Below are positions 4,625-62,061 of a stretch of DNA of 64,000 nucleotides, piece after piece. Position 1 is the stretch's first letter; every line of letters begins with the position of its first letter. The DNA is from Marinomonas balearica (GTDB lineage Bacteria; Pseudomonadota; Gammaproteobacteria; Pseudomonadales; Marinomonadaceae). The notes below the pieces were generated by a model. That model was given only the letters and a program-made list of their open reading frames with translations. It did not search any database and had not been told where the DNA came from. The stretch spans positions 1 through 64,000 of the forward strand of contig NZ_SNXC01000013.1 in NCBI RefSeq assembly GCF_004362145.1. The letters are read 5' to 3'. Made by a program: the position numbers and the translations under genes.

Positions 4625-4656
4625 CCACAGAATAAACGAAACTACGGGAGCATTTT

Positions 4657-44575: not shown

Positions 44576-44604
44576 GCCCTTTACTGCTGGGCTGTACCGA
44601 ACTA

Positions 44605-44638
44605 AAGAGCCATTCCGGTTTATACCCGAATGGCTCTT
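44605..44638 (+). terminator. Hairpin after the chemoreceptor gene
   Basis: AAGAGCCATTCCGG pairs with CCCGAATGGCTCTT, leaving one mismatch around a TTTATA loop, 29 nt after the stop. A short T/C run follows. It overlaps the start of the AraC-like remnant. Confidence 0.6.
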
Positions 44639-45000
44639 CTAACTGCAGGCACGACTTTGCAAAATCTCATAGTGAGTTTTCTGTTCAAAGAGGCGCACCC
44701 AAAGCAATCGGGCTTTGATTCTCTCGTCGCTCAAACCGCACAATTATCTCTAATTCAAGCTATTAGAACCTTTGCCGTAACTTACGAAAGTGATAGAGAA
44801 GGCTGGTTATAGGGCTTTTCTGATCCAAGGATAGCCAAAGCACTGACTTGTGTTCACCGGGACCCCGGCAATAAGTGGAGTATTGAAACACTGGGTAAAG
44901 CAACCGGTATGTCTTGATCTGTCTTCACGAAGCATTTTACTGAAGTGATGGGGAATCTTTGATGGATTATGTATGCAAATCCCAAAAGAGTACTCCAAAA
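44630..45000 (+). pseudogene. Degenerate AraC-family regulator
   Basis: One reading frame reads NLIVSFLFKEAHPKQSGFDS then LIQAIRTFAV, as in cupin-type AraC regulators. After a TAG it continues FSDPRIAKALTCVHRDPGNK, WSIETLGKATGMS, another stop, SVFTKHFTEVMGNL and a further stop. These are the HTH blocks of the family with at least three in-frame stops. The N-terminal cupin is mostly gone. The regulated target cannot be told. Confidence 0.75.
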
Positions 45001-45056
45001 GTAATCTCTACAATTTGCCATGAGAAAGTGACGCATTCATCAGCAGGTTTTTTGCT

Positions 45057-45827
45057 TTAGTCTTCTTCTTCGGCAAGGTTTCCTACTTCAACCGCAGCCG
45101 CACGCAATTCAGGGATAAAATGCATCAGCTCGTCGAGGTTTTTGCGTATAACGGGAGCGTGACAGAACAGACATGCAATCAAACGTCCTTGACTGTCCTT
45201 TACGGGAACGGAGATCGCCACCATGCCATCGATAAACTCTTCGTCATCGGTTCCTATGTCGGTTTTTTGAATATAGAGCAATTCGTTTTCTAGACGAGCG
45301 GGATCCGTTTTGGTATTTCGAGTGTACTGTTTCATGGGAATCGAACCAAGAATCCGCTGCCGACGCTCTTTACTGAGCGAGCTCAAATAAAGCTTACCGC
45401 TGGCAGTGCAGCAAATTGGCGTGTGAATACCAACGGGTAAGTGGATTTGTAACGGCCAGTTGGTTTGTGCGCGGTCGTAGTAAATCATATCGGTGCCGCT
45501 TGGAATCGCAAGGCCGCACGTTTCGCCAATTTTCTCAGCCAAATGTTGTAAAATAGCTTGCCGTTGAGCCTTAAAACGACTGGAATAGATAATCCCCAAT
45601 GCAATGTCATGTAGGCGATCAGCAGGTACTAATAAACCTCGCATATTGGTTTGTAGAAAACCTTCGGATTCGAGCTGTTGCAACAGCCTGTGTACGCTTG
45701 GTTTAGGAATATTTAATAATACGGACAAATCCGCCGCGCTAAGAGGGTGTTCAGCCTTAGAAATGGCTTCAATGATCTCAAGTACACGAGCAATATTTGA
45801 ACCTTTTTCCCGACGTTGCGTGCTCAT
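45057..45827 (-). CDS. IclR-family transcriptional regulator
   Basis: The 256-residue protein has an N-terminal winged HTH (about 8-65: RVLEIIEAISKAEHPLSAAD; IPKPSVHRLLQQLESEGFL). The IclR effector-binding domain follows (about 80-245), with the TSGKLYLSSL-like block CTASGKLYLSSLSKERRQRI and the CLFCHAP segment. It lies downstream of, and in the same direction as, the TRAP transporter genes and probably controls them in response to the transported substrate. Cys residues in the effector pocket could bind the ligand directly. Confidence 0.9.
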   Translation of the reverse strand: MSTQRREKGSNIARVLEIIEAISKAEHPLSAADLSVLLNIPKPSVHRLLQQLESEGFLQTNMRGLLVPADRLHDIALGIIYSSRFKAQRQAILQHLAEKIGETCGLAIPSGTDMIYYDRAQTNWPLQIHLPVGIHTPICCTASGKLYLSSLSKERRQRILGSIPMKQYTRNTKTDPARLENELLYIQKTDIGTDDEEFIDGMVAISVPVKDSQGRLIACLFCHAPVIRKNLDELMHFIPELRAAAVEVGNLAEEED

Positions 45828-45892
45828 AAATAAACCTTATATAACTGCATTTTATAAATTAAAAGAATAAATGCCGAATGAACATACAACAA

Positions 45893-45925
45893 GGGCGACT
45901 CCTGAGTTTTGTCTTAGAGTCGCCT
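45893..45925. terminator. Hairpin between the IclR and TRAP genes
   Basis: AGGGCGACTC and GAGTCGCCT pair around a CTGAGTTTTGTCTTA loop. The T-tract follows on the plus strand. In the minus direction, the gene direction here, the run is weaker, so it may only attenuate transcription from dctM into the regulator gene. Confidence 0.5.
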
Positions 45926-45938
45926 TTTTGGTTAATAC

Positions 45939-47288
45939 CTAATAAGCAATTTTAGGCAACCAAGTCACAATGCCTTCCCAATAAAAAACGATAGCGAGCC
46001 CAAGTAGCTGAATTAAAATAAACGGAATTACACCGCGGTAAATATGGCCAAGGCGAATTCCGATAGGAGCAACTCCTTTTAGATAAAAGAGCGCAAAGCC
46101 GACCGGAGGTGTTAAGAAAGAGGTTTGCAGACACACGGCAAACAATATCGTAAACCACACGAGATCAAACCCTAACCCTGACACGACTGGAGCAACTAAT
46201 GGCAAGATTATTAAGGTAAGCTCGATCCAATCTAAGAAAAATCCAAGAATAAAGGTCACAAACAATATGGTGATCACGATACCTGTTGGGCCAAACGGCA
46301 AGCTGGTTAAAGCGCCTTCGATTATTTCATCCCCACCTAAGCCCCGAAATACCAACGAAAACGCGGTTGCACCGAGAAGTAGGGCAAATATAAAGGCCGT
46401 CGTCTTAGTAGTTTCACGTCCGACTTCACGAAGCACTTTTACATTTAGCCGTTTCTTGCTCAATGCTAAAAGCGTTGCACCAAATGCACCGACACCAGAT
46501 GCTTCTGTAGGGGTAGCAATACCGAAGAAAATGGAACCAAGCACAGCAAGAATAAGACCAGCAGTAGGCAATACGGCTTTAAAAACGTTCCAAAGAATAG
46601 CGTATGTTACTCTTTCACTGTCTTTTGGCGCAGGCGCTGCATGTGGCTTCAGCCACGCATAGATCATGATATAAGCAACATACATTGCCGCCAGTAAAAG
46701 CCCCGGTAATAAGGCACCGAGGAACAAGTCGCCGACGGGAATGCCTACACGATCTCCCATCATTACCAACATAATGCTGGGTGGAATTAAAATCCCTAGA
46801 GTCCCCGTTGAACAAACGGTGCCACAGGCGAGTTCTTTACTGTAGCCTTCACGTAACATCATTGGAATGCCGAGCACCGCCAACAAAACGACAGATGCAC
46901 CGATAATTCCGGTTGATGCTGCTAAAAGAAGACCAACAAAGGTTACGGTAACGGCAAGGCCGCCGCGCACTCTACCAAACAATCTCGCCAAATTGCCCAT
47001 AAGATCTTCAGCAACACCGGATCGATCCAACATCAATCCCATGAAGACGAACATGGGTAACGCAACCAACACCCAGTTTGTCATCACGGCCCAAATGCGT
47101 TGAACCGTAATTGATACATAATTCCAATCCACACCGATAAAAGCGTCTAACCAATAATCGGCTGCCATAGAGATAACAGCGAACACGATCGCAATGCCGC
47201 CCAATACCCAAGCAACCGGAAAGCCGCTGAATAGACAAACAATAAAAGTCGCAAACATTGAGATAGCGAGAACTTCGTTGATTTCCAT
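45939..47288 (-). CDS. dctM: TRAP transporter large permease (DctM family)
   Basis: The 449-residue protein has about 12 hydrophobic helices. It carries the DctM blocks FPVAWVLGGIAIVFAVISMA, TGTLGILIPPSIMLVMMGD and FFLDWIELTLIILPLVAPVV. It forms the sodium-driven transport channel with the small permease encoded 8 nt upstream. The substrate is set by the binding protein at 48180-49253. Confidence 0.93.
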   Translation of the reverse strand: MEINEVLAISMFATFIVCLFSGFPVAWVLGGIAIVFAVISMAADYWLDAFIGVDWNYVSITVQRIWAVMTNWVLVALPMFVFMGLMLDRSGVAEDLMGNLARLFGRVRGGLAVTVTFVGLLLAASTGIIGASVVLLAVLGIPMMLREGYSKELACGTVCSTGTLGILIPPSIMLVMMGDRVGIPVGDLFLGALLPGLLLAAMYVAYIMIYAWLKPHAAPAPKDSERVTYAILWNVFKAVLPTAGLILAVLGSIFFGIATPTEASGVGAFGATLLALSKKRLNVKVLREVGRETTKTTAFIFALLLGATAFSLVFRGLGGDEIIEGALTSLPFGPTGIVITILFVTFILGFFLDWIELTLIILPLVAPVVSGLGFDLVWFTILFAVCLQTSFLTPPVGFALFYLKGVAPIGIRLGHIYRGVIPFILIQLLGLAIVFYWEGIVTWLPKIAY

Positions 47289-47296
47289 GATCTCTC

Positions 47297-47929
47297 CTAG
47301 GGATGGGTTGAAGTAGGTTGAATGTCAGATCGCTTACGATGAAAAAGCAAAGCAAGCACACGAGAGAGACGGGATATGGTCGCCAGTGCTAATAAAACGA
47401 AGCCCACTAAGAGACTCGATTTGATCACCCATCGGTAAGGCAAACCGCCGGGCGCGGAGGAAATTTCATGCATTTCCCATGAATAACTAATAAAGGGAAC
47501 CGAATACCAAATCACCGTACAGGTAAACGGCAAGAGAAGAAGTAATATTCCGAACAGCTCAATCCACGATTTGGTTCGCAAACTTAAATGACCGTGTATC
47601 AAATCCACTCGAACGTGTTGATCATAAGCAAAACAATAGGACAGGCCAATAAGCCATCCAACTGCGTAGAAATGCCATTGAAGTTCCTCAAATTCAATAC
47701 GGCCTTCACCCAAGGCATAACGCATAAACACATTGAGGATGATGATTCCCATAAGTAGGATCCAAATCCAAGAAGCGGCATTGCCGATGGCTTTCAATAC
47801 GCCGTCTATTTGCTTGGAAAGGGCAGTTTCCGGCAATTGAGCGTTTGATGACAGAGAGCTAGAAGGCTGAGAGTCTGAATCATTATTAGAGCTGAGATTT
47901 TCAGCCTTGTCGTTAGGGGTGAGTTGCAT
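47297..47929 (-). CDS. dctQ: TRAP transporter small permease (DctQ family)
   Basis: The 210-residue protein has a polar N-terminal extension of about 45 residues. Four hydrophobic helices follow, with the DctQ pattern NVFMRYALGEGRIEFEELQW and YDQHVRVDLIHGHL. The ATG at 47929 is chosen because AGGAGG lies 5 nt upstream; a start at 47992 would add 21 residues without a ribosome site. It partners the large permease encoded next. Confidence 0.9.
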   Translation of the reverse strand: MQLTPNDKAENLSSNNDSDSQPSSSLSSNAQLPETALSKQIDGVLKAIGNAASWIWILLMGIIILNVFMRYALGEGRIEFEELQWHFYAVGWLIGLSYCFAYDQHVRVDLIHGHLSLRTKSWIELFGILLLLLPFTCTVIWYSVPFISYSWEMHEISSAPGGLPYRWVIKSSLLVGFVLLALATISRLSRVLALLFHRKRSDIQPTSTHP

Positions 47930-48179
47930 AATATCCTCCTGAATTATTACGGCCAAATAACACTGATATTCCCTCGCCCATTTCCTGTGCAAAGTGACGA
48001 AAAGAGATCACTTCACTCGGCTAGGATAAGCATCAAGGGCGTTAGGCATGTTAGAAAACGCAGAAGTTAGGTCATTAGAGAAAGAAAAATCCCGCCTCTA
48101 ATGACTACCCTTTAACTTATTCGTTGTTTACTAGCGGTTAACTAGGCCGTTTATGGAAATGGAACCAGTGATTTGAAAA

Positions 48180-49253
48180 CTAAAGATCTAAAGGAAGGTA
48201 CGCGAGTTTACGCCACGCTTTATATTCTGCTCTAAAGCTCTGTTGAGAATCGTAGATCTTTTTAAAATCTTCGTCTTGTGCAGAAAGCTCTGACATGACT
48301 TGATTCGTGATGTTCTTCAGACCGGTAAGCATTTCTGAGTTCAGTGTCTGAGTTTTAATTCCTTTTTCTTTTAACTCAGTGAGGACTTTACCTTGGATCG
48401 CTTCGCCGTGAGTCAGCGCGCGGAATGTACTTGCTGTGCAAGCCATATCAATGGTTGCTTTAGTGGAACTGGCAAGGTCATCCCAAACATCTTTGTTAAT
48501 GACTAAATGGGAGGCTGTAAAGGTTTGATGCCAACCGGGGAAATAGTTGTTTTTCGCAACTTTATCGAAGCCCATGATCTTATCTATCGCAGGCATGGAA
48601 AATTCCGTTGCATCGATCGCGCCTTTTTCAAGTGCAGGAAAAATTTCGCCGCTTGGCAGAACGGTTACGGACGCACCTGCTTTTTGAAGGACTTTCCCCC
48701 CTAAACCCGCAAAGCGAATTTTAAGACCTTGAAGGTCTTCCATGGCATTGACTTCTTTTTTGAACCAGCCAGCAGTCTCGGGTCCAATAATGCTACACAA
48801 TACGGGGTGTACATTGTGTTTGGCGTACAAGTTTTCGGCTAAATTTTTACCTTCACCCTCATACCACCATGCGGAATATTCCCAAGGTTCCATGCCAAAC
48901 GGGACAGCGGATAACAGAGCAGAAGCAGGAATTCGACCTTGATCGTAACCTAGCCATGCATAACCCGCATCGAGTTGGTGGTTTCTGACAGCCTCGGTGA
49001 TGCTAAAAGGAGGAACAATTTTTCCCGGCTCATAGACCTTAAATTGTATTTGGCCGTCGGTCGCGGCTTTGAGTTGTTTAGCAACATGTACGATGGGATC
49101 CCCTAATCCTGGGAGATGCGTTCCAAATACAGCTTGGACTTTCCAACGAATTTTATCTTCAGCAGCGAAAGTGGAGGTGGCAGTGGTAGCGAGAAGTGTT
49201 GACACGGCAGCGGCAACACAGGTTTGTTTAACCAACGTTTGAATGCGGAGCAT
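48180..49253 (-). CDS. dctP: TRAP transporter substrate-binding protein (DctP family)
   Basis: The 357-residue protein has a signal peptide (about 1-30, ending TFAAED). The DctP fold shows GLKIRFAGLGGKVLQKAGAS, VLPSGEIFPALEKGAIDATE and MGFDKVAKNNYFPGWHQ. These blocks resemble the TakP-like branch that binds 2-oxo acids and related carboxylates; that subfamily call is tentative. It delivers substrate to the DctQM permease. The 250-nt gap to dctQ is longer than usual. Confidence 0.9.
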   Translation of the reverse strand: MLRIQTLVKQTCVAAAVSTLLATTATSTFAAEDKIRWKVQAVFGTHLPGLGDPIVHVAKQLKAATDGQIQFKVYEPGKIVPPFSITEAVRNHQLDAGYAWLGYDQGRIPASALLSAVPFGMEPWEYSAWWYEGEGKNLAENLYAKHNVHPVLCSIIGPETAGWFKKEVNAMEDLQGLKIRFAGLGGKVLQKAGASVTVLPSGEIFPALEKGAIDATEFSMPAIDKIMGFDKVAKNNYFPGWHQTFTASHLVINKDVWDDLASSTKATIDMACTASTFRALTHGEAIQGKVLTELKEKGIKTQTLNSEMLTGLKNITNQVMSELSAQDEDFKKIYDSQQSFRAEYKAWRKLAYLPLDL

Positions 49254-49421
49254 GACTGGTTTCCTTGTAAGTGTCCGAGAATTTTCTCAGTATTATTTTT
49301 ATTGTCCTACACAGATGTATCCTTTCGATACGATTGCTATCATTATGTACATCTTCACTACAGTCAACTTAGCCTTTAGTCTATAGTGAGATAAATATTA
49401 TCGTTATTAAGCTAATTATTC

Positions 49422-49470
49422 CTAAATTCAGATAATAAGTGCGACACTGGTCTTCACCACAAGAACAAGC
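49422..49470 (+). repeat. Solo end of an IS30-like element
   Basis: Bases 49422-49449 match the IS30 end at 576-603 exactly over 28 bases. Bases 49453-49470 match its leader in 17 of 18 positions, with about 45 bases missing between. No transposase remains. It abuts the 3' end of the MFS gene, marking the edge of the AT-rich cassette. Confidence 0.7.
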
Positions 49471-50757
49471 TTAGGTTTCTTTCAAGTTAATGCTTTTGTC
49501 TGCTTCATTAGGAAGGCAAAATAAGCTTGCGTAAGCCCCCTCAAGCTCGTCTTCTTCCATGGATAATAGATGTTCCATTTTGGGTATATGAATAATGAAC
49601 TGTGAGACGACTAATAAAATAAGGCCAAAAGCAAAAAGGAGGCTTTGCAATGAATAGGATTCAATCCAATTTCCCATTAATAAGAAACCCAATGGAGTAG
49701 AAGACAGTATTGTCAGTATATGGATCGTTTGTAATCGACTACGGTATTGTTTAGGGATAGCAATTGAACGAACAGACTCGACACAAATATTACAGACAAT
49801 AATAGAGAGTCCCAAAAATAATAATGCTCCGCCCCAAACAATATAGTTATCAAATAATGCAAGTAACAAAATGGATATTCCCATAAATGAGAATGAGCTT
49901 TTCACCAAAGTCATTTTTTTAACGCCAATATAAATTAATTTTTTTTGTACATATAAAGCCCCCAAGATTACGCCAAAAGAGATACAAACCTCATAGAAAA
50001 CGACATATCCCCCGTCTTTCATAAGAATGTGAGAGACGAAAAACGGAATGGCAATACTGATAATAGGGGCGACAATGAAATTTGCTAAAGAAGCCGCGAG
50101 GTTCCAGTAAAATTCAGATTTATATTTATAGGTTAAAATAAAACTCTCTTTTATTTCTCTCATATATGTTAAAGATTCTGACCTAATTATGGGCTTTTCT
50201 TTGGCTACATTTAAAAATAACAATATCAATTGAGAGACGATGGACAAAGTGGTTGCTAAAACTACCGCTACGTATAAACCAAGCATATCTAATGAGATGA
50301 TACCTACAGAAATACCAATTAGAGACCCTATAGATTGTAAAAAAAAAGTATATTGATATGCTAAATCCAAGTTCTTTTTTTCAACAATATCTGGAAGTAT
50401 CGCATTTGCAAGTGGTGGGTAAATAGCATCGCAGCACCCTAAAAATATCACAATGGCATAGAACAATGGTACATAGATATTTTTTTGATTAATCATGTAT
50501 ACGGCTATAAAAAAACCGACTAAAGCCAGTGAGTTGGCATAAAAAATCAACTTTCTTTTTTCAAATCGGTCGCCTAACGGAGACAATATTGTACCGAATA
50601 CTATCTTAGATAAGAAATATGTAGCATAGATAGATGAAGCTTCATCAGGAGAAGAAACGTAACTTATAGAAAACCATATAAAAATGCTAATAAGCATTTT
50701 ATTAGCCGTAGTGGATAATGTTTCGCTTATCCTTAAGATCCAAAATCCGTTTTTCAT
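49471..50757 (-). CDS. MFS transporter, putative exporter of the peptide cassette
   Basis: The 428-residue protein has about 12 TM helices of the MFS type with the loop-2 motif LSPLGDRFEKRKLI near residues 57-70. The codon use is very AT-rich, matching the adjacent HExxH gene, which ends 15 nt upstream. In this context it probably exports the modified small peptide or confers immunity. The C-terminal 30 residues are acidic and cytoplasmic. Drug efflux is an alternative role. Confidence 0.75.
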   Translation of the reverse strand: MKNGFWILRISETLSTTANKMLISIFIWFSISYVSSPDEASSIYATYFLSKIVFGTILSPLGDRFEKRKLIFYANSLALVGFFIAVYMINQKNIYVPLFYAIVIFLGCCDAIYPPLANAILPDIVEKKNLDLAYQYTFFLQSIGSLIGISVGIISLDMLGLYVAVVLATTLSIVSQLILLFLNVAKEKPIIRSESLTYMREIKESFILTYKYKSEFYWNLAASLANFIVAPIISIAIPFFVSHILMKDGGYVVFYEVCISFGVILGALYVQKKLIYIGVKKMTLVKSSFSFMGISILLLALFDNYIVWGGALLFLGLSIIVCNICVESVRSIAIPKQYRSRLQTIHILTILSSTPLGFLLMGNWIESYSLQSLLFAFGLILLVVSQFIIHIPKMEHLLSMEEDELEGAYASLFCLPNEADKSINLKET

Positions 50758-50772
50758 AATAAAAACTCTTTT

Positions 50773-51705
50773 TTAAGTGATGTTACGCACTTGTTTGGCA
50801 CATTGATTAAAAAGAAATTCTCCATAGTGGGTAAATACTGCATTTTTTTTCATTATATTATGAGTTTGATAAAACTTATCAATAGTAGATTGCAGCCTAT
50901 TTTCTCGTTCTTCTTCAAAATCAAGTGAAAAATTTGCTTTACCTAGTTTTGAAAGAATGCTTATAATTCTACACATCACAAAATAAGCATGATACAGACC
51001 ATCCATAGGTCTGAGATCGGCACGATATGGGGCTTTATATTTCTCTTCAGCAGGGTTTAGAGTTAGCTCATCATAAGATTGTGCAGTATATAAAACAACA
51101 TGAGAAAGTTCATGAATAATATGTTCAATATAGAAGAGGATTGAGTTTTTTCTATTCGCATTAATCAAGATAAGACCAAATAAATTAAAACTTGCAGCTG
51201 ATCTGATATAGTTCCCCTCACTATGACCTGTTAATATTATTTCATCTATATAGCTTTCTAATTCAAAGCGGAGCTTAGGTGATATTTCTTCAATTATCAT
51301 TAAAGCTCTCGAGAGCTTTTTTCTTTCTTCTTTTTGATTTTCACGAACCGTCCCTACTTCTATACTTTTATCTTTATGCAAAAACAGTTCGTTTTCAATT
51401 AACTCAATTTTATTTTTTGACGAAATGTCAAAATTCAATTCGCTTATGGATAGACTTTTAAATTCTTTGTAATTTTCTAATGAATCTACCAAGAATTTCT
51501 TTCCTAATTTTATATCATTTAGTTCTAATGAATATATGCATTTGTTATAGTAACCATACGACAACCAGCTTGGTTTTTTTGATGTATCAACTTTTTTATC
51601 AAGACCTGTTTCAGAAATTAAATAGTCGAGAGATCGGTTTAATAAAGCATGATGGCTGGCTACTCTTTCCGCTATATTATAATTTTCTGAACTAAGATCT
51701 ATCAT
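50773..51705 (-). CDS. HExxH-motif putative peptide-modifying hydroxylase
   Basis: The 310-residue protein is helical with an HELSH metal motif (residues 198-202) and a distal RPMDGLYHAYF (His239). This arrangement matches the HExxH-type putative peptide beta-hydroxylase family, which modifies RiPP precursors with iron and 2-oxoglutarate. The ATG at 51705 is chosen over a TTG at 51741 because a GGGGG site lies just upstream and the TTG lies within a hairpin. It is downstream of a 25-residue peptide gene and upstream of an MFS exporter. A metallopeptidase role is the alternative. Confidence 0.7.
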   Translation of the reverse strand: MIDLSSENYNIAERVASHHALLNRSLDYLISETGLDKKVDTSKKPSWLSYGYYNKCIYSLELNDIKLGKKFLVDSLENYKEFKSLSISELNFDISSKNKIELIENELFLHKDKSIEVGTVRENQKEERKKLSRALMIIEEISPKLRFELESYIDEIILTGHSEGNYIRSAASFNLFGLILINANRKNSILFYIEHIIHELSHVVLYTAQSYDELTLNPAEEKYKAPYRADLRPMDGLYHAYFVMCRIISILSKLGKANFSLDFEEERENRLQSTIDKFYQTHNIMKKNAVFTHYGEFLFNQCAKQVRNIT

Positions 51706-51720
51706 ATTTACCCCCAAATT

Positions 51721-51754
51721 AATAGAGGTAGCTTTATTCAAGCCACCTCTATTT
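51721..51754 (-). terminator. Intercistronic hairpin between peptide and enzyme genes
   Basis: On the minus strand AATAGAGGTGGCTT pairs with AAGCTACCTCTATT with one wobble around a short GAAT-type loop. It lies between the peptide stop (51759) and the enzyme start. RiPP operons often have such a stem to make more precursor than enzyme. No T-tract follows in the gene direction, but one follows on the plus strand. Confidence 0.7.
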
Positions 51755-51758
51755 TTAT

Positions 51759-51836
51759 TTATAATTGATCATTTACTGTGACCGCTGTCATAGAAATGCT
51801 TTTTGTTCTAAGTAGCTTTGAATAATCTAATTTCAT
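51759..51836 (-). CDS. 25-residue peptide, putative RiPP precursor or signal
   Basis: The peptide starts MKLDYSKLLRTKSIS and ends VTVNDQL. The middle (about 16-20) is MTAVT. An AAGGAG site (51843-51848) lies 6 nt before the ATG. The basic, leader-like first half and short Thr/Val/Asn/Asp-containing second half, next to the HExxH enzyme and an exporter, suggest a modified peptide. It was found by reading the minus strand; it is too short for routine gene calling. A signal peptide for the divergent regulator is an alternative. Confidence 0.7.
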   Translation of the reverse strand: MKLDYSKLLRTKSISMTAVTVNDQL

Positions 51837-51848
51837 AGTGTGCTCCTT

Positions 51849-52105
51849 GTTTTAATGAAAACGTCTCAATCTAGGTGACAACTCAATTTAGAGTCGACTA
51901 TTTCATTATCTTACTACTAAAAACTATTGAAATAATAAAAAGTATCCTTTTTCTATATAATTTATAAACTTTATCGAGTTGACATTTGTTTTGTTTTGAG
52001 GTGAGGGGTGTGAGGGCCAAATTTAAAATTTCTATTGTCAGGCACTTCTTATAGGCTGTAGTATTAATAGCGTATAGACATGGGATGGAGACCTCAGGAA
52101 TCGTT
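51849..52105. promoter_or_regulatory. Divergent promoter region of the peptide cassette
   Basis: An AT-rich region between the peptide gene and the double-HTH regulator. A possible plus-strand promoter is TTGTCA (52035-52040) with TAGTAT (52059-52064), spacing 18. Related short motifs, TGACAACTC (about 51897-51905), GAGTCGAC and GAGTTGACA (about 51976-51984), could be operator half-sites. No binding has been shown. Confidence 0.45.
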
Positions 52106-52915
52106 ATGGCGAAAAAGAATAGTAGTCAAGGAGCACACTTCGACTTCCGTCCAATTATCCTTGATTTTCCAACGATGGAAGTTGATGAAAAAAAGAACTT
52201 TGCGAGTAATTTAAGGTCTTGTCGTCAATCATTAAGATTAACAAGAGAAAAAATGGCATCTGAACTAGGTGTCTCTATACATCAATATCGAAAATACGAA
52301 GAAGGAAAAGATTGGATGAGAATGCATGCAGCTATGCGACTCACTCTTATTTATGGAATTCCTTTTACTGCATTATTTACCGGAGGATGTTATAGTGATC
52401 TTTGCCCACCTGCTAACACTTTAAGAAAATGGCTAGATATTCAAATATATTCTTCTCGAAGCCAAAGCGCAGAGTTTGCAATGTTTATTTCTTTGCTAAA
52501 TCAAAAATATTCCGATAATCCTATAGAATACGAAGAAATAGATAGTTGGCCGACAGATAGCCAAATTTGGCAAGAACTTCCTTACTATTATTCTATTGTA
52601 GGACAGGGGTTGAAACACTTTCGCTCCGAAAATAAGATTTCACAACAAGAACTTTCAGAGCTATTAGGAGTGGAATATCGAACTATAGGTCGTTATGAAA
52701 ATGACAAGCAGAGCAATTTTAGTGTAATAATGGCGCTTCGGTTTTTGGCCGGGTGTGGCGTCTCTCCATTGCAGTTAATACAGAATTCGAAGCTATATCA
52801 AAGAAGAGTTTTACAATCTGAACGAATAAATAGGCTACAGATTTGGATGAAAACTCTTTCAGATAATAAGCAATATAACGTTTCTAGAATTGCAAAAATT
52901 TTATCCAATATTTAG
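52106..52915 (+). CDS. Double-HTH XRE-family regulator
   Basis: The 269-residue protein has two Cro/CI-type HTH domains. The first (about 30-90) contains LRSCRQSLRLTREKMASELG. The second (about 165-225) contains RSENKISQQELSELLGVEYR. An ATG at 52106 with AGGA 6 nt upstream is preferred; an ATG at 52085 would add 7 residues. It is divergent from the peptide cassette, AT-rich like it, and probably controls it. There is no TPR or peptide-binding domain visible. Confidence 0.75.
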   Translation: MAKKNSSQGAHFDFRPIILDFPTMEVDEKKNFASNLRSCRQSLRLTREKMASELGVSIHQYRKYEEGKDWMRMHAAMRLTLIYGIPFTALFTGGCYSDLCPPANTLRKWLDIQIYSSRSQSAEFAMFISLLNQKYSDNPIEYEEIDSWPTDSQIWQELPYYYSIVGQGLKHFRSENKISQQELSELLGVEYRTIGRYENDKQSNFSVIMALRFLAGCGVSPLQLIQNSKLYQRRVLQSERINRLQIWMKTLSDNKQYNVSRIAKILSNI

Positions 52916-53004
52916 AGGTCATAAATTATTATAAATATATTGGCTGAGTTAACTCATTAGATATTATTTTAAGCTGCTTATACGCAGACATTTTCTTACT
53001 CTGG

Positions 53005-53075
53005 GGAAAACCTTGAGAGACAAGAAGGAAACTGAGGTTGAACTAAAAGAGTTTGCTTTTCTTCCATAAAATAAT
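53005..53075 (+). pseudogene. Remnant of a holin-like gene
   Basis: The frame RDKKETEVELKEF matches EKNDTEVELKEL in the holin-like protein at 40287-40823, and the DNA CTGAGGTTGAACTAAAAGA is the same in both. Only a few dozen bases remain before a stop. It lies at the 3' edge of the second accessory block, hinting at a duplicated locus end. Confidence 0.55.
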
Positions 53076-53094
53076 TCACGTCGTAAAGTAATCC

Positions 53095-53118
53095 AACACG
53101 AACACGAACACGAACACG
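53095..53118. repeat. Hexamer tandem repeat
   Basis: Four perfect AACACG units in the gap after the second AAA+ gene. Function unknown; slippage-prone. Confidence 0.7.
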
Positions 53119-53147
53119 AGCTACTTTAGAGAGTGCATACAAATTAT

Positions 53148-54548
53148 TTAAAATCGGCTGAGTGCATTATTTCGCTCATCATTCCCTAACTGCTGCTGAA
53201 TGCCGGCATTGATGTCTTTCGCTAATATCACAGTGCGATCATCACAGACTGCCTTTAACGACGTATAGCGAATCACATTCATAATAGCGGCAGCAGAAAG
53301 TTCATGAGCCTTAGCGATATGCGATAAGTCTATGGAGCTTTCTAGCGATGATTTATCCGAAAAGCCGGATTTCCAAAGGGATAAACGCTGTGCTGCATCG
53401 GGCAGTTTAAAATAAACAACCGCTTCAAACCGCCGAAAAAAGGCTTCATCGAGGTTGTTCTTATAATTAGAAGCCAAGATGACCACACCATTAAAAGCTT
53501 CTATTCGTTGCAACAAGTAGGCAACGTTTTGGTTTGCAAATTGGTCATTTGCGCTGTTGCTTTCAGTTCGCTTACCAAACAAAGCATCGGCTTCATCAAA
53601 AAATAAAATCCATGATTTGTCCTCAGCCATTGAGAATACTTTTTCAAGGTTTTTCTCGGTTTCACCAATGTACTTAGAGGTGATTAAGGATAAATCGACT
53701 TGGTAAACATCAGACCCTGTAGATTCCCCTAACAAGCACGCCGCCATGGTTTTTCCCGTTCCAGGCTGACCGTGAAACAAAGCTCGATAGCCGGGACGAA
53801 TTTTATTGCCAAACCCCCAATCTTGTTTCAATTTATGACCGTGTTTAATCCAACCTCTAATATCTTCCAATTGCTCCATGGTTGCGTCGGGCAAGTTAAG
53901 ATCTTGCCATCGTTTACCTGATACAACCCGTTTCGCAGGAAAGTCTTGCGATAAATCAGGGCGATAAGGCTCTGAAATGGTAAATAGATGCAAATATTCA
54001 TCTTTTACCTGAAAAGGTATTTTCATCAATGAGACATCGTCAGATTCGCCTTTTAGTTGCAACAGTTTAAAAGCGGCCGATTGAGCTTGCTGATACAATT
54101 GCTTTTGAATATTGAAGCGATCTTCTAACGCATCGCAACCAATCAAAAATGCCAATGTTTCACCGGTCGCATAAATACAGCCACCTAACTCCTGACAGCC
54201 AAACTCAGTATATGGGCGTTCTGTTGCCTCATTTTTATATAAAAATACATCCAACACACTGGGTTTTACAGCGGGCAATAAAGCCAACACAAGAGCAAGA
54301 CGCTCAACAAAGGTTAGGTTGGCTTGTTGCAAATAAAGCCCATAAGGGGAGTTGTATGACGCAACGTTCGGGGCGATTACTTCTGAAACACCGCTGTAGG
54401 AGGTTTCTTGATTAAAATAGAGGTTTAAACGCACGTTAATAATCTGTTCACACCAAGCGATGTCTGTCGTTAGATCTTTCGCATTCCATTGCAAATCGCT
54501 TAACGCGACAGACGGCTTTTTGATAGGTGTTACATTAAAATTGACCAT
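53148..54548 (-). CDS. Second eCIS-type AAA+ ATPase
   Basis: The 466-residue protein has an N-terminal helical region and an AAA+ module. The Walker A is GQPGTGKT (about 260-267), the Walker B is LFFDEADALFG (about 314-324), and an arginine-finger segment AFFRRFEAVVYFKLPD follows. It is clearly related to the ATPase at 2600-4624 but about 200 residues shorter. A GGAG site precedes the ATG. It is the last gene of the minus-strand PatG-like block, which may need it for assembly or cargo handling. Confidence 0.88.
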   Translation of the reverse strand: MVNFNVTPIKKPSVALSDLQWNAKDLTTDIAWCEQIINVRLNLYFNQETSYSGVSEVIAPNVASYNSPYGLYLQQANLTFVERLALVLALLPAVKPSVLDVFLYKNEATERPYTEFGCQELGGCIYATGETLAFLIGCDALEDRFNIQKQLYQQAQSAAFKLLQLKGESDDVSLMKIPFQVKDEYLHLFTISEPYRPDLSQDFPAKRVVSGKRWQDLNLPDATMEQLEDIRGWIKHGHKLKQDWGFGNKIRPGYRALFHGQPGTGKTMAACLLGESTGSDVYQVDLSLITSKYIGETEKNLEKVFSMAEDKSWILFFDEADALFGKRTESNSANDQFANQNVAYLLQRIEAFNGVVILASNYKNNLDEAFFRRFEAVVYFKLPDAAQRLSLWKSGFSDKSSLESSIDLSHIAKAHELSAAAIMNVIRYTSLKAVCDDRTVILAKDINAGIQQQLGNDERNNALSRF

Positions 54549-54590
54549 GCGTACTCCAATACTGATATGTTTTGTTCATGCTATCGATTG

Positions 54591-55544
54591 CTAACCAAAG
54601 TAGCGCGTCATTCCCTGTTGTAAGGTCGGGTATTCAATGCTTACGTCGACGCGGCAAAACCAACGGCTGCGCAACTCACTTGAGTTTCCTTTAAACTCAA
54701 AAACAATCTGATAGATTTGTTGTTGGCCTTGCAGTTTATATGGCTCATAGAAAACGTCTTCAATCGTAAAACCTAGTGGGTCGTGGCTATCATGATCAAA
54801 CCCACCGTTAAGCATTTTATAGGCGACGGCGTAAATGTCAGGGTAATTCCAACATGCGTAATTTAGTGCTCGTTCTGCATCATTAATTCCCAAATTATGG
54901 GTATGGGATAAAATGGGCTCTACTACGTTATGGGTTAATAAACTGGGTTCAAACGGATCATTAGGCGCATATTTTTTAAGAGCTTCATTGATACCAGACA
55001 TTAAGAACTTACGCGGTTTATACATAATATGTTCGCAGAGTAATTTAGGCTGCTTTTGAAACCCGACAAGCTCTTCACTTAATTTCCCTACAGCGATGTG
55101 TAAATCTAATGGATCTGATTTTGGCGATAGGCTCGAAATCAATTCATTTAAACAAGCTTCGGATGCAGGCACGAGCTGGTACGTATCTGCGCCATCTATG
55201 TCCAAAAACCATTCAATTTCGCGTGCTAAATGACGATTCTCACTTAAACACAGTAATGGGTAGAGGTTTTCTGCTGTAAGTTCCAGAGGCTCATTTAAAT
55301 TTTTACTTAAGTGAGTACTTTTTCCCCCTTGGATTAACTGCCTAAACGCATGTGCAATGCTGTCACTCTCGACTTTAGGGTTTATAAGACCCGCGACATA
55401 ACAATACACTGGCTCGCTGCTCATCCTCTGCGCTACAGCTTGATTATGCTCATTACTGGGCGCACTTTGAGCCGTTAATTGCAGTGTATTATTTGGTGAA
55501 GTTGGCATACTTTTTTGAGAGATCGTGTTTTGTAAATTCGACAT
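54591..55544 (-). CDS. PatG C-terminal-domain-like protein, copy 1
   Basis: The 317-residue protein shows the pattern of the domain at the end of cyanobactin protease PatG. The landmarks are YCYVAGLINPKVESDSIAHA, then REIEWFLDIDGADTYQLVP and RALNYACWNYPDIYAVAYKM, ending VDVSIEYPTLQQGMTRYF. No protease domain is present. Three paralogues lie in a row, so they may form a complex or act as adaptors. An AGGAA site lies before the ATG. The molecular role of this domain is not known. Confidence 0.65.
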   Translation of the reverse strand: MSNLQNTISQKSMPTSPNNTLQLTAQSAPSNEHNQAVAQRMSSEPVYCYVAGLINPKVESDSIAHAFRQLIQGGKSTHLSKNLNEPLELTAENLYPLLCLSENRHLAREIEWFLDIDGADTYQLVPASEACLNELISSLSPKSDPLDLHIAVGKLSEELVGFQKQPKLLCEHIMYKPRKFLMSGINEALKKYAPNDPFEPSLLTHNVVEPILSHTHNLGINDAERALNYACWNYPDIYAVAYKMLNGGFDHDSHDPLGFTIEDVFYEPYKLQGQQQIYQIVFEFKGNSSELRSRWFCRVDVSIEYPTLQQGMTRYFG

Positions 55545-55567
55545 AATATGATTCCTGCTTAACGTTG

Positions 55568-56557
55568 CTAATTTTGAGGCTCACCAAAAATTAATTCAGA
55601 ACAGCTAAAAGGGTAGAGTTCCGTCACATCAATATTGATGTGCTGCTTTTCGACACGTTTACTATCAGGATTTAGGTAAGAAAAAATCAACGTCATAACC
55701 TGTCGTTCGCCGCTACTCACATCACTGATCGCCTCGATTTGTTCAAACTCAATGCCTTCTTTGTTGTGCGCTAACATTGGGGCAGTAAACACCTTGTATA
55801 AACTGGTGCATTTTAAGCTTAAGTAATTGAGTGCTCTCTGCGCAGGCAAATTGCCTTCGTTCCGACAAAACTTCAACATACTGTTAAAAAGTGGTTTTAT
55901 TTTGCTCAATTCAACATCAGTTTGCTGGCTCAAGACCTGACAATAATCGTCTACTGTCGAGCTTTGAATTTGATGTACATAGGCCATTCTCATGATGCGG
56001 CCGCCACATAAATGGTCGGAAGCATAACCGCCTAACTGAGCGATAACATACTCAAATTGTTGTGTAGAATTCGGCTGCAAGGCTTTAATAAATGCGTTTA
56101 ATAATGCTGGCGTTTTTGCATGCAATACATAGCAATCTGTACCGTCAATGTTCAGCACCCAACACATTTTTTTGGCTAGAAAAAGATGCTCTGGCATGCT
56201 CAATACTTCAAATAGACTTTTCGACTCAGCATGAGGACCAAACTGTTGGAAAGCCACTTCCTTATAAAGCTTTTCCACACTGGAAGAAGGGAACTGTGCT
56301 TGAATACGACCCAAAGCGTAAAGGTAAGAGGGCGTATCGATGGCCTCTGTTTCGGGCTCAGCTTCGAGGGCTTCTTCAGTATGTTGCTCTGTCGTCTTTT
56401 CTGTGGAAATTGGTAGATCTGACTGGTTGTCGGTGTCACCATCTTGCACTTTCTGCACGGTATTGTTTGTTGCGGTAGAGCTTTCAGATTGAGCGACATG
56501 CACAATCTCACTGGGCTCTACAGTTATATCGCTGGGGTTTGTTTGATCCTGAATCAT
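55568..56557 (-). CDS. PatG C-terminal-domain-like protein, copy 2
   Basis: The 329-residue protein starts at the ATG at 56557 (AGGA about 8 nt upstream). An acidic N-terminal stretch of about 75 residues precedes YLYALGRIQAQFPSSSVEKL, AKKMCWVLNIDGTDCYVLHA, RALNYLSLKCTSLYKVF and INIDVTELYPFSCSELIFGE. It matches the PatG-type pattern best of the three. It has no protease triad. It is between the other two paralogues with short gaps. Confidence 0.68.
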   Translation of the reverse strand: MIQDQTNPSDITVEPSEIVHVAQSESSTATNNTVQKVQDGDTDNQSDLPISTEKTTEQHTEEALEAEPETEAIDTPSYLYALGRIQAQFPSSSVEKLYKEVAFQQFGPHAESKSLFEVLSMPEHLFLAKKMCWVLNIDGTDCYVLHAKTPALLNAFIKALQPNSTQQFEYVIAQLGGYASDHLCGGRIMRMAYVHQIQSSTVDDYCQVLSQQTDVELSKIKPLFNSMLKFCRNEGNLPAQRALNYLSLKCTSLYKVFTAPMLAHNKEGIEFEQIEAISDVSSGERQVMTLIFSYLNPDSKRVEKQHINIDVTELYPFSCSELIFGEPQN

Positions 56558-56638
56558 AATTATTCCTGTTGAAGCATTATTAAATAACAAGCGACTCGAA
56601 CGAGTGTCTTTTTAGACTAATAATTAGCAGCGAGCTGT

Positions 56639-57547
56639 TTAAGGACTAGGGCAATAGTGTTCCAAAGGCCGCGTTAAGTAGGGATACTCATGGCTCACAT
56701 CAATTTGACAGGCTCGTAATATCGTTTGATCAGAACCACGCATCTTGTATTTGTAAATAACATCCACTAATTGCTTTTGACCTTGTAATTTCGCAGGTAC
56801 GACAAAGGCATCAATAAAGTTATAACTTTTACTGCTGTCACTGCCGTGCTCGGCTAACTGGCCAGCAAACTGATACACGCTCATGCAATTAAGCATGCTG
56901 TAATTAAGCGCGATATCGGTTAATTCCCGTCCGGGGTTATTGCTTAAGATCAGCAGTTTTTCAAACATATCCGTCGCTAATGTCTCTTCAATGCCTGTTT
57001 CTTGAACTATCCGATTAATGAACTCTTTAAAGGTAAATGCCATTAAAAAATCACAGCGCAATGTCGGCAGTGTTTGACCATTTGTAAGGCTTACATCAGA
57101 ACCTATTACCCCCGTTACAACATGGTAGGCAATTTCTCCCGGCGTCATCACCAAGCTTTGTATCATTTGCTTAAGTTCCATATCGCTGCGCGCTTGCACT
57201 AAATATGAATCTTTTCCATCTACGGTTAATATCCAATCCAGATCATGAGCAAGATCAAAATTCACGTCATCTGACAGTAATTGCTTTGCGCTCGCAGCAT
57301 CTAACGCTTTTTCACCAGGCAATCTGGCAATACGGTTAAATTCTCGTTGTACGGATTCGGTTGGAAACTGCACCCGCAAACGACCAAAAACATAACCATT
57401 TTGAGTTTCTGCAACCGCCGTTTGGTCTATCGCCATCCGTTGGCAAGGCTGTGCTGAATTGTTGGCGATTTGATCCGCAGCCGAAGTACGAGGAACAAAA
57501 TCTCCGTATCGATACAAGGGCCGTGAAAAGGTATCCAGTGTATTCAT
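56639..57547 (-). CDS. PatG C-terminal-domain-like protein, copy 3
   Basis: The 302-residue protein has YVFGRLRVQFPTESVQREFN, AHDLDWILTVDGKDSYLVQA, ALNYSMLNCMSVYQF and CQIDVSHEYPYLTRPLEHYC, the same skeleton as its two neighbours. The ATG at 57547 with AAGGA upstream is preferred; a TTG start at 57604 would overlap the previous gene by a TTGA junction and add 19 residues. Divergence among the copies suggests separate functions. Confidence 0.65.
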   Translation of the reverse strand: MNTLDTFSRPLYRYGDFVPRTSAADQIANNSAQPCQRMAIDQTAVAETQNGYVFGRLRVQFPTESVQREFNRIARLPGEKALDAASAKQLLSDDVNFDLAHDLDWILTVDGKDSYLVQARSDMELKQMIQSLVMTPGEIAYHVVTGVIGSDVSLTNGQTLPTLRCDFLMAFTFKEFINRIVQETGIEETLATDMFEKLLILSNNPGRELTDIALNYSMLNCMSVYQFAGQLAEHGSDSSKSYNFIDAFVVPAKLQGQKQLVDVIYKYKMRGSDQTILRACQIDVSHEYPYLTRPLEHYCPSP

Positions 57548-57600
57548 TCTCTGTTTTCCTTTTATCAGTGGTTTTTTGATGGGTTCGTTACTTTTATGAC

Positions 57601-58011
57601 TCAACGTCGATAGCGCTTTCTTACACCGGGTCGACTGCGCACTTTGTTTGTTTTATTTTTTGAAACGTAAGGTTCACTTTTCTCAGTAGGGCTGTTTTTA
57701 TTGCAAATATCATCACAAAGTGGATCCTCATCACTTGTGTCCTCACAAACAAGAGCCTGGTTGTCTGTGGCAACGCTGTTTTTACGATCTAGATTTATGT
57801 TATCTACGCTTGCCTCACCCGCCTCATGTTCTTCCTGCTCAGTCAGCTCTGAAACACTGGCACCTTGAATATTTTTCTGACGCAACGGGCTTTGCGGTTC
57901 CACAAGGAAATACTTAGGTAAAGCGCTAAGCTGATCATTATGTTCACAACTAAACTGCCTATCTAACACTGAGACTAAGTTTTTGTTACTTCCACTATGG
58001 TTATTGACCAT
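57601..58011 (-). CDS. Small hydrophilic hypothetical protein
   Basis: The 136-residue protein is polar and probably disordered, with an acidic middle (CEDTSDEDPLCDDIC) and a strongly basic end (RSRPGVRKRYRR). It has no recognised domain. It is the first gene of the minus-strand block with the PatG-like genes and AAA+ ATPase. It may be a linker, cargo or adaptor peptide. Confidence 0.5.
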   Translation of the reverse strand: MVNNHSGSNKNLVSVLDRQFSCEHNDQLSALPKYFLVEPQSPLRQKNIQGASVSELTEQEEHEAGEASVDNINLDRKNSVATDNQALVCEDTSDEDPLCDDICNKNSPTEKSEPYVSKNKTNKVRSRPGVRKRYRR

Positions 58012-58347
58012 TGCATCGCTCGCTGTTTTTTATTCGTCATTGGCGTAATTAATATCGTGCAGTATACGGAGGAGGGGGTAATCATTTCTCATCAAAAAAA
58101 ACGAAAGACACGGGGGAATAAACGAAGAGATAAAAGGCAGTTCGACTGTAAGTAATAGAGTGAAAAATGAAGCAAAAAGTGGAATGAAAAACGGATTAAC
58201 GATCTGATAAAAATTAGCGTGATTAGCGGTGTTTTTACTACAAATAACTGAGTTTCTATCTATAAACGCAATTACAGTTCAATGCATGATCATTAGTACA
58301 AATTGAGAACACTTAAAAATACAAGTTCATAGGAATAAGGAATCAAG
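58012..58347. other. Divergent intergenic region between the PatG-like block and the DUF4157 gene
   Basis: No gene was seen in these 336 bases. They should hold two promoters, one for each direction. AT-rich runs lie at 58200-58330. No palindrome stood out. Confidence 0.4.
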
Positions 58348-58758
58348 ATGAAGGTAATGCCGCAAAAAAGAGAACTGCATGAATATGTCTTGCATAATAA
58401 TGCCCACCCTAAGTTTGAAAGTCATCATTCTGAGAATCACGGCGTCCCTTTGCCTTACTGCTTACGCATTGGTATGGAGCGATTAAGCGGCTTACCTCTG
58501 TCTACTGTTCGGGTATTTTATAACGCTTCAGAGCCTGCAAGTGTGCAAGCCCACGCCTATGCACAGGGCGAGAATATTTATTTAGCCCCCAATCAAGAGC
58601 ACCACTTGCCCCATGAGTTAGGGCATATCGTGCAGCAAATGAAAGGCATGGTAAAACCAACTAAAACCGTTAATGGTGTGGCGATTAATGACGACCCTTT
58701 TTTAGAAAACCATGCGACTGAGTTAGGAGAGCGGGCATTACTATTGGGAAAGTGTTGA
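58348..58758 (+). CDS. DUF4157 (eCIS-core) metallopeptidase-like protein
   Basis: The 136-residue protein contains the DUF4157 signature: LSGLPLSTVRVFYNASEPA, AYAQGENIYLAPNQ and the zinc motif HELGH (89-93), followed by IVQQM. DUF4157 is strongly linked to eCIS loci, where it occurs in cargo or adaptor proteins. Here it is stand-alone with no fused toxin. It may process or escort cargo. The ATG follows an AAGGAATC site. Confidence 0.88.
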   Translation: MKVMPQKRELHEYVLHNNAHPKFESHHSENHGVPLPYCLRIGMERLSGLPLSTVRVFYNASEPASVQAHAYAQGENIYLAPNQEHHLPHELGHIVQQMKGMVKPTKTVNGVAINDDPFLENHATELGERALLLGKC

Positions 58759-58848
58759 GGGACTGCCGCACTTTTTTATGAGATATAGTTTTGAGTTTGA
58801 CCTTAGTAGAAACTACTAAATTATTCATCGATTAAGTGAGTTGATCAA

Positions 58849-59589
58849 CTATTGCTTAGCGCGTTGTAACGACTTAATAAAATCCGACTCCCACGGTCTC
58901 ATCGCGAACAACATGCCAGTTCGTTGTCTTTTAGACATAGGCAAAACCGAGTCTTCTTGATTTAGAGCCGACGCTTTGTAAGCGACTTTTTCTAACATTT
59001 GTCTGATGATTTCGATAGACGATTCTGAATAACGTCCACTCAGATACAAACGATAATCCCACTTTTCTCCTTTTTTTGCTTTCATGAAGCTCGACAGTAT
59101 CTCTTGCTCGATAAACGCTTCCAGCGGACCACCCGGTAACCAACGAAAATCATGCGCTATGAGCGAGCGATAATGGTTGTTGGGGAGAAATTCAATGACT
59201 TTCAGCTTGTCCAGTTTAGACATGAGCTGAATCCCTTCGTGTTCCGATATGTCGTAAAAATCGATCATTTCCTGAAAAGACCAACTGTCTCTCACACAAA
59301 TTGCAGCCACGAGTAATTTAGGGGAGGCAAGTAGTTCATTCTCTTGTTCTTGAGTAAGTTGACTGACTTTCTCAGTTTGCTTTTCTGACAAGATAAAGAG
59401 ATCTGAAAGGGTGATTTTAAGAATGCTGCAAATCTGTTCTAAGCGATCTAACGTGAAACTTTGTGTAGAAAAAATACGCTTTATACTGGCTTCACTCATC
59501 TCCAATTGATCGGCAATGTTCTTATAGGTAATTTGCTTTTGTTTAAGCAACAACTTCAAAGTGTGATTGATTTGATGTATCTGGCTCAT
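58849..59589 (-). CDS. XRE-family transcriptional regulator (full copy)
   Basis: The 246-residue protein has an N-terminal HTH (KQKQITYKNIADQLEMSEAS; IKRIFSTQSFTLDRLEQICS) and an about 185-residue helical C-terminal domain of unknown ligand. The start is set at the ATG at 59589, 2 codons into the GTG-initiated frame, with AGGAAG upstream. A 5'-truncated copy lies at 16263-16892. It probably regulates nearby genes; the target is unknown. Confidence 0.8.
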   Translation of the reverse strand: MSQIHQINHTLKLLLKQKQITYKNIADQLEMSEASIKRIFSTQSFTLDRLEQICSILKITLSDLFILSEKQTEKVSQLTQEQENELLASPKLLVAAICVRDSWSFQEMIDFYDISEHEGIQLMSKLDKLKVIEFLPNNHYRSLIAHDFRWLPGGPLEAFIEQEILSSFMKAKKGEKWDYRLYLSGRYSESSIEIIRQMLEKVAYKASALNQEDSVLPMSKRQRTGMLFAMRPWESDFIKSLQRAKQ

Positions 59590-59725
59590 TTTCACTTCCT
59601 GCTGGCAAAGTATCGATAAATAATACCTTTAGTCTTAAATTTATCAACTTTTCATGTTTGAGTTTACCATCGCACAACTGTGCTCTAGATTTTATCTCAC
59701 CAAACACAAAAACGGAGTTTCAATC

Positions 59726-60055
59726 ATGAAGTTAATTAAACGTTCTACAATTGTCGCTTTATTTACCGCGGTAGTCTGTTCGACATCGTATGCATCTAGC
59801 GATCACAGTACTCAAGCAAGCAAACACCTTTCGCTTGGTGCAAGCCATGGTGTTGCATCCGTCGCGCAGCCAGTTAGCGCGGTGGTGGCATCACCAATAC
59901 TCGTATCTGGAGCCGTAGCAGGTTCGGTAGGTGCGGCTAGCACCCGTGTTGGTGCAACAACTCTAAATGCACATAATAAAATCCCCAGCGCTTTTAATAT
60001 TACCGAGAAAACCATAACTGCTGGGCCTTCGCCAGATCAAGCCATTCAAGAGTAA
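59726..60055 (+). CDS. Small exported protein, unknown function
   Basis: The 109-residue protein has a clear signal peptide (MKLIKRSTIVALFTAVVCST, cut about after SYA). A small, Ala/Val/Ser/Gly-rich mature part follows that could be partly membrane-associated. The ATG at 59726 is chosen for GGAG 8 nt upstream. It precedes the DUF2145 gene by 92 nt on the same strand; the two may act together. Confidence 0.6.
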   Translation: MKLIKRSTIVALFTAVVCSTSYASSDHSTQASKHLSLGASHGVASVAQPVSAVVASPILVSGAVAGSVGAASTRVGATTLNAHNKIPSAFNITEKTITAGPSPDQAIQE

Positions 60056-60147
60056 CATTGATACAACATCGTCGATACAACACCAAGGAATAGCGCCTGA
60101 CATCTTTAGGTCTACTCCAGTTCAATAATTAACCTAGGGAATGGAAT

Positions 60148-60954: not shown

Positions 60955-61053
60955 GCCATCCACGTATTTTTTAGAATCGATCCCCATAATGCTCTTTGTA
61001 GGTTATTGCGGCGAATGCCAATAAAAACGTCTGTTCGCCGCAATGCTTTCATA

Positions 61054-61776: not shown

Positions 61777-62061
61777 TCGTTTTCCTTATTAATTGCCAAA
61801 ATTCGAGTTTAGTCCGTTCAATCCAGTCCAAGGATTTGATTCTCAAGCATATGTCCGTAGCCGCTAAGGATCAACAAAAAGGAGGGAGGCTGGACGATAC
61901 GCTCGTACGAAGAACAACATTGGTTTTCGTAAGGGCGGCTTCGTTGTACTTTGTCTGTCTTGTTTGTTGGCCTGAGCAAACATCAAAAGTATTTTAGAAA
62001 AAATTTAATGGATGTGACTTAGCGGGTTTGAGTAAGCACTGGATTTGAGTGAATTGAAAAA
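61777..62061. other. Intergenic region left of the repeat array
   Basis: No gene was recognised. It contains the upstream region of the minus-strand toxin candidate. A short plus-strand frame (61707-61997) is a shadow without a ribosome site. Confidence 0.35.

Follow-up and report, generated by a model that had tools for sequence, protein, structure and literature searches.

Alpha-ketoglutarate HExxH oxygenases have been recognized only recently, and the published cases compared here are multi-enzyme clusters or fused domains. The HExxH domain of ChlB/ChlH (PDB 8s5f) is an alpha-ketoglutarate HExxH peptide beta-hydroxylase. In the biphenomycin cluster bip (PMC12707348) and the nitrilobacillin cluster pes (PMC13060819), as described in the accessible parts of both papers, an alpha-ketoglutarate HExxH hydroxylase carries out a tailoring step on a ribosomally synthesized and post-translationally modified peptide (RiPP). 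The available part of PMC12636437 describes PflC and PosC of Pseudomonas as stand-alone HExxH enzymes with a nearby precursor gene and transporters, and with no protease gene. Here we describe a similar locus in a 64,000-nucleotide stretch of Marinomonas balearica (contig NZ_SNXC01000013.1, positions 1 to 64,000), referred to below as the window. This locus is very probably a minimal RiPP cassette, consisting of a short precursor, one HExxH oxygenase and a major facilitator superfamily (MFS) transporter. It has an MFS gene in common with bip, but bip and pes are, in the parts of the papers mentioned, many-enzyme clusters with dedicated peptidases, and the bip precursor has 41 residues. Unlike ChlB/ChlH, to whose HExxH domain it is 16% identical, the window enzyme stands alone and is accompanied by a 25-residue precursor. 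The features of the locus are the following.

51759 to 51836, minus strand: probable precursor peptide gene, 25 codons, MKLDYSKLLRTKSISMTAVTVNDQL; upstream position, size and leader pattern as in the relatives, where the frame is under purifying selection
51843 to 51848, minus strand: putative ribosome-binding site, AAGGAG, ahead of the precursor gene, recognized by sequence only
51721 to 51753, minus strand: 14-bp hairpin between the precursor and enzyme genes, without a T-run (-21.2 kcal/mol, z -7.2)
50773 to 51705, minus strand: predicted alpha-ketoglutarate HExxH-type peptide oxygenase, 310 amino acids, ATG start
49471 to 50757, minus strand: MFS transporter, 428 amino acids, probable product exporter (Pfam MFS_1, 86.1 bits)
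52106 to 52915, plus strand: divergent regulator with two Cro/C1-type helix-turn-helix (HTH) domains, probable cassette regulator (Pfam HTH_3/HTH_31, two stretches)
49408 to 53135: most likely an acquired island carrying the cassette, limits approximate (synteny break, low GC, enzyme missing from relatives)

The initial annotation of this DNA had placed the enzyme, the 25-codon open reading frame (ORF), the hairpin, the MFS gene and the double-HTH gene where they were found here, and every detail that was checked was right. The enzyme contains both HELSH and the distal RPMDGLYHAYF, the good ribosome site of the short gene is the AAGGAG 6 nt before its ATG, and the MFS gene starts 15 nt past the enzyme stop codon. 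The ATG of the short gene is the first start of its frame, with an in-frame TAA just upstream, and the gap from 51706 to 52105 holds three short ORFs on the minus strand. The locus is indeed AT-rich compared with its flanks, the GC content being 0.30-0.35 at 50001-53000, 0.44-0.47 at 44001-49000 and 0.40-0.43 at 53001-62000. Pfam and NCBIfam scans of the four cassette genes revealed no radical SAM protein. A promoter scan of 49300-53150 gave 18 sites where shuffles predict 16.8, and the same region has four terminator-like sites (1.6 expected), the 14-bp hairpin not being among them.

Relatives of the locus were gathered from the enzyme alone. Nine plasmid records matched, four of which were fetched, and 39 loci were found in species genomes; the class and phylum searches gave 7 of 369 and 11 of 398 genomes, respectively, the own genome being counted in both. 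Two types were separated by enzyme motif and, for the members included in the tree, also by clade. Type A (13 loci) occurs in Pantoea, Photorhabdus, Xenorhabdus, Morganella, Rodentibacter and a record labelled Martelella, and type B (10 loci) in Xenorhabdus, Acinetobacter, Moraxella, Salinivibrio, Vibrio, Histophilus and Pandoraea. In a tree of 34 enzymes selected from those gathered (L034 trimmed to its last 340 residues), the window, locus L112 and eight type A rows formed one group (100/100), the positions of long branches, including L112, being unsure. The DNA of the Morganella enzyme gene had no match in E. coli genomes.

The homologous loci conserve the short ORF: 21 of the 23 type A and B loci have, directly before the enzyme gene, a short open frame that carries the leader pattern, and in 17 of the 23, by our reading, it is in frame with an ATG. 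The pattern, L-D-x-x-K-L/V/I-L/V/I, is common to both types, and the C-terminal part varies by clade. As in RiPP clusters, a conserved, encoded precursor adjoins a modifying enzyme, and a conserved leader part, predicted to be recognized, precedes a variable core. The window peptide would accordingly consist of the leader-like MKLDYSKLLRTKS and the core-like ISMTAVTVNDQL, at a limit placed by prediction, with MKLDYSKLLRTK as its proposed leader. The precursor peptides of Morganella, Photorhabdus and Acinetobacter are MKKLDKSKLLKIKSPLSGWSFSK, MKNFDSSKVVKIKSPLSGWAVNDKNDD and MLNKFDINKIVALKNKSKCLTIMTIGNK, respectively. The peptide most similar to that of the window, MKLDMSKLIVSQSALSLTAMVALSSVNKSIGE, is encoded by L112, in a genome (G615) from the same taxonomic order as the window. 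Its gene is followed by a T-run-bearing hairpin and then by the genes for the enzyme, an EamA protein and an MFS-like protein (Pfam 28.0 bits, below the 33.4 cut-off). An MFS gene is found downstream in all 23 type A and B loci, although in L022 the contig ends within it and in L017 it is split into two frames.

Purifying selection on the short frame is apparent in the relatives, the synonymous differences (pS) exceeding the nonsynonymous ones (pN) in 36 of 38 within-group pairs, which are not independent of each other. Within the group of seven loci from Morganella, Pantoea, Martelella and Rodentibacter, pS ranges from 0.38 to 0.94 and pN from 0.00 to 0.17. The two exceptions are L006-L007, which are identical, and L003-L004 (pS 0.00, pN 0.05). 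When the 1330 short ORFs (12-70 amino acids) of the window were ranked with models built without the window peptide, the window ORF came first by both the 17-peptide and the 9-peptide model (9.0 and 10.6 bits, E 0.1 and 0.028). In pairwise comparisons it ranked first against four of 11 relatives' peptides, namely those of L112, L012, L013 and, in a three-way tie, L006; second against L002 and L004; third against L048; and 8th, 9th, 15th and 25th against L100, L107, L021 and L005, respectively. Taken together, a short frame that is selected in the relatives, followed by an HExxH oxygenase gene and then by an MFS gene, supports the compact RiPP or peptide system of the initial annotation at the sequence level, its product, modification and biological role being what we infer from it.

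Several points weigh against this conclusion. The pattern for the short-frame search was drawn up after the first relatives' peptides were known, and its count (matches in 19 of 24 loci, with the window, L002 and L004 excluded, and six elsewhere in 476,106 strand-bases) is therefore not blind. The 9.0 and 10.6 bits of the window peptide are low scores, by which alone kinship is unproven, and the type B model (eight peptides) scores an out-of-frame ORF within the enzyme gene, at 51525-51602, above it. The core sequence differs among clades. Where other precursors have ATG, L003 has ATA and L009 and L022 have ATT; one-base frame breaks are present in L014, where the letters are kept, and in L016, where the break precedes the ATG; and an intact short frame is missing from L014 and L018, the latter wholly lacking the pattern letters. 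These starts and frame breaks may reflect decay, sequencing error or unusual starts. The enzyme gene looks broken or shortened in 8 of the 23 loci (L003, L013, L016, L017, L018, L024, L026 and L032), and these enzymes together with the broken or ATG-less precursors indicate that the system is often lost. Short ORFs were looked for at ten of the 19 species-genome loci beyond types A and B (L020, L023, L025, L027, L028, L029, L030, L033, L041 and L044), and none has the A/B leader pattern. Finally, none of the labelled genes around the other loci is a relative of the regulator, and the chemistry, transcript and product of the cassette are all predictions.

The ORF at 51525-51602 (minus strand, LIKKLIHQKNQAGCRMVTITNAYIH), out of frame within the enzyme gene, resembles a type B precursor with 12.6 bits (E 0.0056 among 1330), a resemblance that is probably due to chance. 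As for annotation, a scan of 16 short peptides gave no NCBIfam match above cut-off, and the gene tables that accompany three plasmid records, tables that are themselves incomplete, do not include the precursor genes; standard annotation thus seems to miss this peptide family. The exact strings of the relatives' peptides were not found in papers either.

Among 13 MFS proteins compared, those of Photorhabdus/Xenorhabdus are closest to that of the window (30%). In 8 of 10 type B loci, a carboxymuconolactone decarboxylase-like gene (Pfam CMD, one scanned) intervenes between the enzyme and MFS genes, and in two scanned type A loci a DUF6817-matching protein follows the MFS gene (184 amino acids in L007 of Photorhabdus, 177 in L008 of Xenorhabdus). 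In L005 of Photobacterium the MFS gene comes first, preceded by a 25-residue ORF, MKKLDEKKVFSLRKKSTPCLKNVSN. The apparent lack of a dedicated peptidase and of an ABC exporter held as far as labelled or annotated neighbours go: no ABC exporter and no shared peptidase was seen among them, nor was a peptidase annotated beside L002 or L003. It holds less firmly beyond them, since most neighbours are unannotated, and the gene after the DUF6817 protein in L007 (7646-8767) has a Peptidase_M3 match of 15.0 bits, below the cut-off of 27. With a divergent regulator adjoining the window precursor and an exporter present, the peptide could chiefly be a signal read by the double-HTH protein in a modified-peptide communication loop. 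This is compatible with a RiPP cassette, but we consider it improbable as the main function, given that the regulator has no labelled counterpart near the other loci; tblastn also found no relative of it in plasmids.

The enzyme matches the TIGR04267 profile with 64.3 bits, well over the curated cut-off of 40, and its fold matches that of the ChlB HExxH domain (PDB 8s5f). Residues H198, E199, H202, R228, R232, G236, H239 and A240 are invariant across 14 aligned enzymes, and the HExxH motif is accompanied by the distal R/R-P-x-x-G-x-x-H-A residues, a block common to ChlH. The protein is therefore filed in the alpha-ketoglutarate HExxH family, and peptide hydroxylation dependent on Fe(II), alpha-ketoglutarate and O2 is predicted for it. 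It could alternatively be a zinc-type metallopeptidase whose action on the peptide, by processing or by destruction, serves maturation or immunity. The HExxH motif and the zincin-like fold agree with this, as does the hydrolysis of a leaderless peptide by PflC with several metals, reported in the available part of PMC12636437. We regard it as very unlikely, since both profile and fold group the enzyme with the alpha-ketoglutarate HExxH oxygenases, in line with the HExxH-type peptide hydroxylases named in the initial annotation, and do not support an ordinary metallopeptidase. As PflC is a relative of this family, 'hydroxylase' and 'peptidase' are not strictly exclusive labels.

The 14-bp hairpin between the precursor and enzyme genes has a 5-nt loop, and its z of -7.2 was obtained against 200 dinucleotide shuffles. 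Folding of the spacer reached z <= -2.2 in 22 of 24 loci (the window, 21 of type A/B, L020 and L023), the weak folds being those of L013 (z -1.9) and L016 (z -0.1); for L016, L024, L026 and L034, where the enzyme start is unclear, a fixed spacer of 75 nt was used. The hairpins of the relatives lie in the same place with different stem sequences between clades, and between L003 and L004 the stem is kept by one two-sided change and one change to G-U. Alternatively, the short ORF could encode a regulatory leader peptide that is no substrate, with ribosome stalling on it switching a terminator-like hairpin and so controlling the enzyme and the efflux pump. We regard this as very unlikely: the layout of short ORF, hairpin, enzyme and MFS gene fits it, as do the T-runs after the hairpins of L002, L021, L026 and L112 and the low-end pairing of the window ORF to the 5' arm of the hairpin (z -1.8), but in 14 of the 15 loci tested this pairing does not go beyond what shuffled arms give (z -1.8 to +1.2; L024, -3.0), 0.73-1.00 of the hairpin is retained in the same loci when ORF and spacer are folded together, no T-run follows the window hairpin, hairpin sequences vary but the peptide is preserved through synonymous changes, and the enzyme family acts on adjacent peptides according to the accessible parts of PMC12636437 and PMC13060819.

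In the minimal RiPP cassette, the N-terminal MKLDYSKLLRTKS would be the recognition leader bound by the oxygenase which, with Fe(II), O2 and alpha-ketoglutarate, would hydroxylate the C-terminal ISMTAVTVNDQL at one or more positions. The hairpin would raise precursor over enzyme output, by partial termination or by protection of the precursor mRNA, the MFS protein would export the product, and the double-HTH protein would control the divergent promoter region. Because no peptidase gene was seen as a shared neighbour, the peptide would be exported at full length, shortened by a housekeeping protease or cleaved by the oxygenase. PflC cuts the backbone oxidatively when the leader is present and hydrolytically when it is not (PMC12636437, available part), and by analogy self-release of the product is possible for the window enzyme. 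The final step, and the weakest, is that the product is likely a secreted antibacterial or signalling peptide.

Beyond types A and B, several enzymes from the class and phylum searches are preceded by longer ORFs with a similar start, e.g. MNKIIKLDATKLLGNTQKGRIMAGQKPVGRKPK in L048 and, in L107, an ORF starting with MTIKLDETKLLGFRLQ and carrying a repeated G-x-K-x-G. This start was not seen at L104, L108 or the ten species-genome loci listed above. Although without statistics, this lead suggests that an old LDxxKLL leader may be used by part of the enzyme branch. In L096, L098, L099, L113 and L115 (group D), an HExxH gene is accompanied by a longer precursor-like ORF with an LDxxKLL-like start, in some cases with G-x-K-x-G repeats, and by a divergent gene for a protein of about 320 amino acids, similar by eye only; the divergent proteins of L098, L099 and L115 had no Pfam match at E 0.01.

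We tentatively consider, as a possibility that is rather doubtful, that a single enzyme runs the whole RiPP pathway. The HExxH oxygenase would then recognize a leader of about 12 residues in a precursor of 22-33 residues, hydroxylate the core and release the product by cutting the backbone oxidatively or hydrolytically, with no need for a protease, a RiPP recognition element (RRE) domain, a partner enzyme or an ABC exporter. If this is true, the LDxxKLL leader, from the mini-precursors to the multi-core precursors of group D, would define a previously unnamed HExxH RiPP superclass across Pseudomonadota.

Other arrangements were observed as well. L020 (1484-1552, Legionella) and L023 (4330-4398, a Coxiellaceae metagenome) have 22-residue ORFs, MLHIQLEIVEENPIVNTMAVEG and MTNVNVTLEETNPIVDMAAIEG, with a hairpin before the HExxH gene, which is followed by epimerase-like and MFS genes; these ORFs (NPIV..MA.EG) have a different sequence and were not counted as having the type A/B leader. 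L027 of Streptomyces (4569-6664) contains two adjoining HExxH genes.

Synteny of the window with three genomes of the same genus (94-97% DctP identity) ends at 49368-49410, and the match with one of them, G010, resumes at 53136 for 63 bp. The GC content is 0.38 at 49001-50000, falls to 0.32, 0.30 and 0.35 over 50001-53000 and then returns to 0.42, and no enzyme homologue was found in the other 142 relatives searched. From the synteny break, the low GC and the missing enzyme, the cassette most likely lies on an acquired island, AT-rich and about 3.7 kb long. A phage origin was considered, and no match was obtained in phage records or in viral contigs, the viral scan having used two patterns. 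Beside the island, 53148-58758 encodes an AAA ATPase, three tandem PatG_D + PatG_C proteins (54591-57604) and an eCIS core domain protein (58348-58758); this block is missing in G010, where the matches to window positions 53136-53198 and 61629-61782 are contiguous. Relatives occur on plasmids and in genera associated with insects and animals, which suggests that the cassette may be a mobile trait used between bacteria.

Among known RiPPs, the TQQ family of streptococcal RaS-RiPPs (NF050041; PMC13361665, accessible part) is modified by radical SAM enzymes, unlike the cassette. Residues 2-18 of the Morganella precursor of L012 (4611-4679) match NF050041 weakly (E 0.032, 14.2 bits, cut-off 50), and the two possibly share a leader type, which is only a lead; the window peptide does not match this model, nor do the own genome and 14 controls. 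PflC and PosC have, in the available part of PMC12636437, an NHLP-type leader, MNIO-nitroreductase and GNAT partners and a poly-Gln/ARMD core, none of which occurs in the window, and the window precursor is shorter than theirs. No description of this kind of cassette was recognized among the papers listed in the open literature, subscription papers being mostly outside that scope, and it appears to be a variant of the HExxH RiPP systems not found described before. With one oxygenase and a substrate of 25 residues, it would provide a very small natural setting for substrate and site choice, in which leader recognition could be tested with synthetic peptides.
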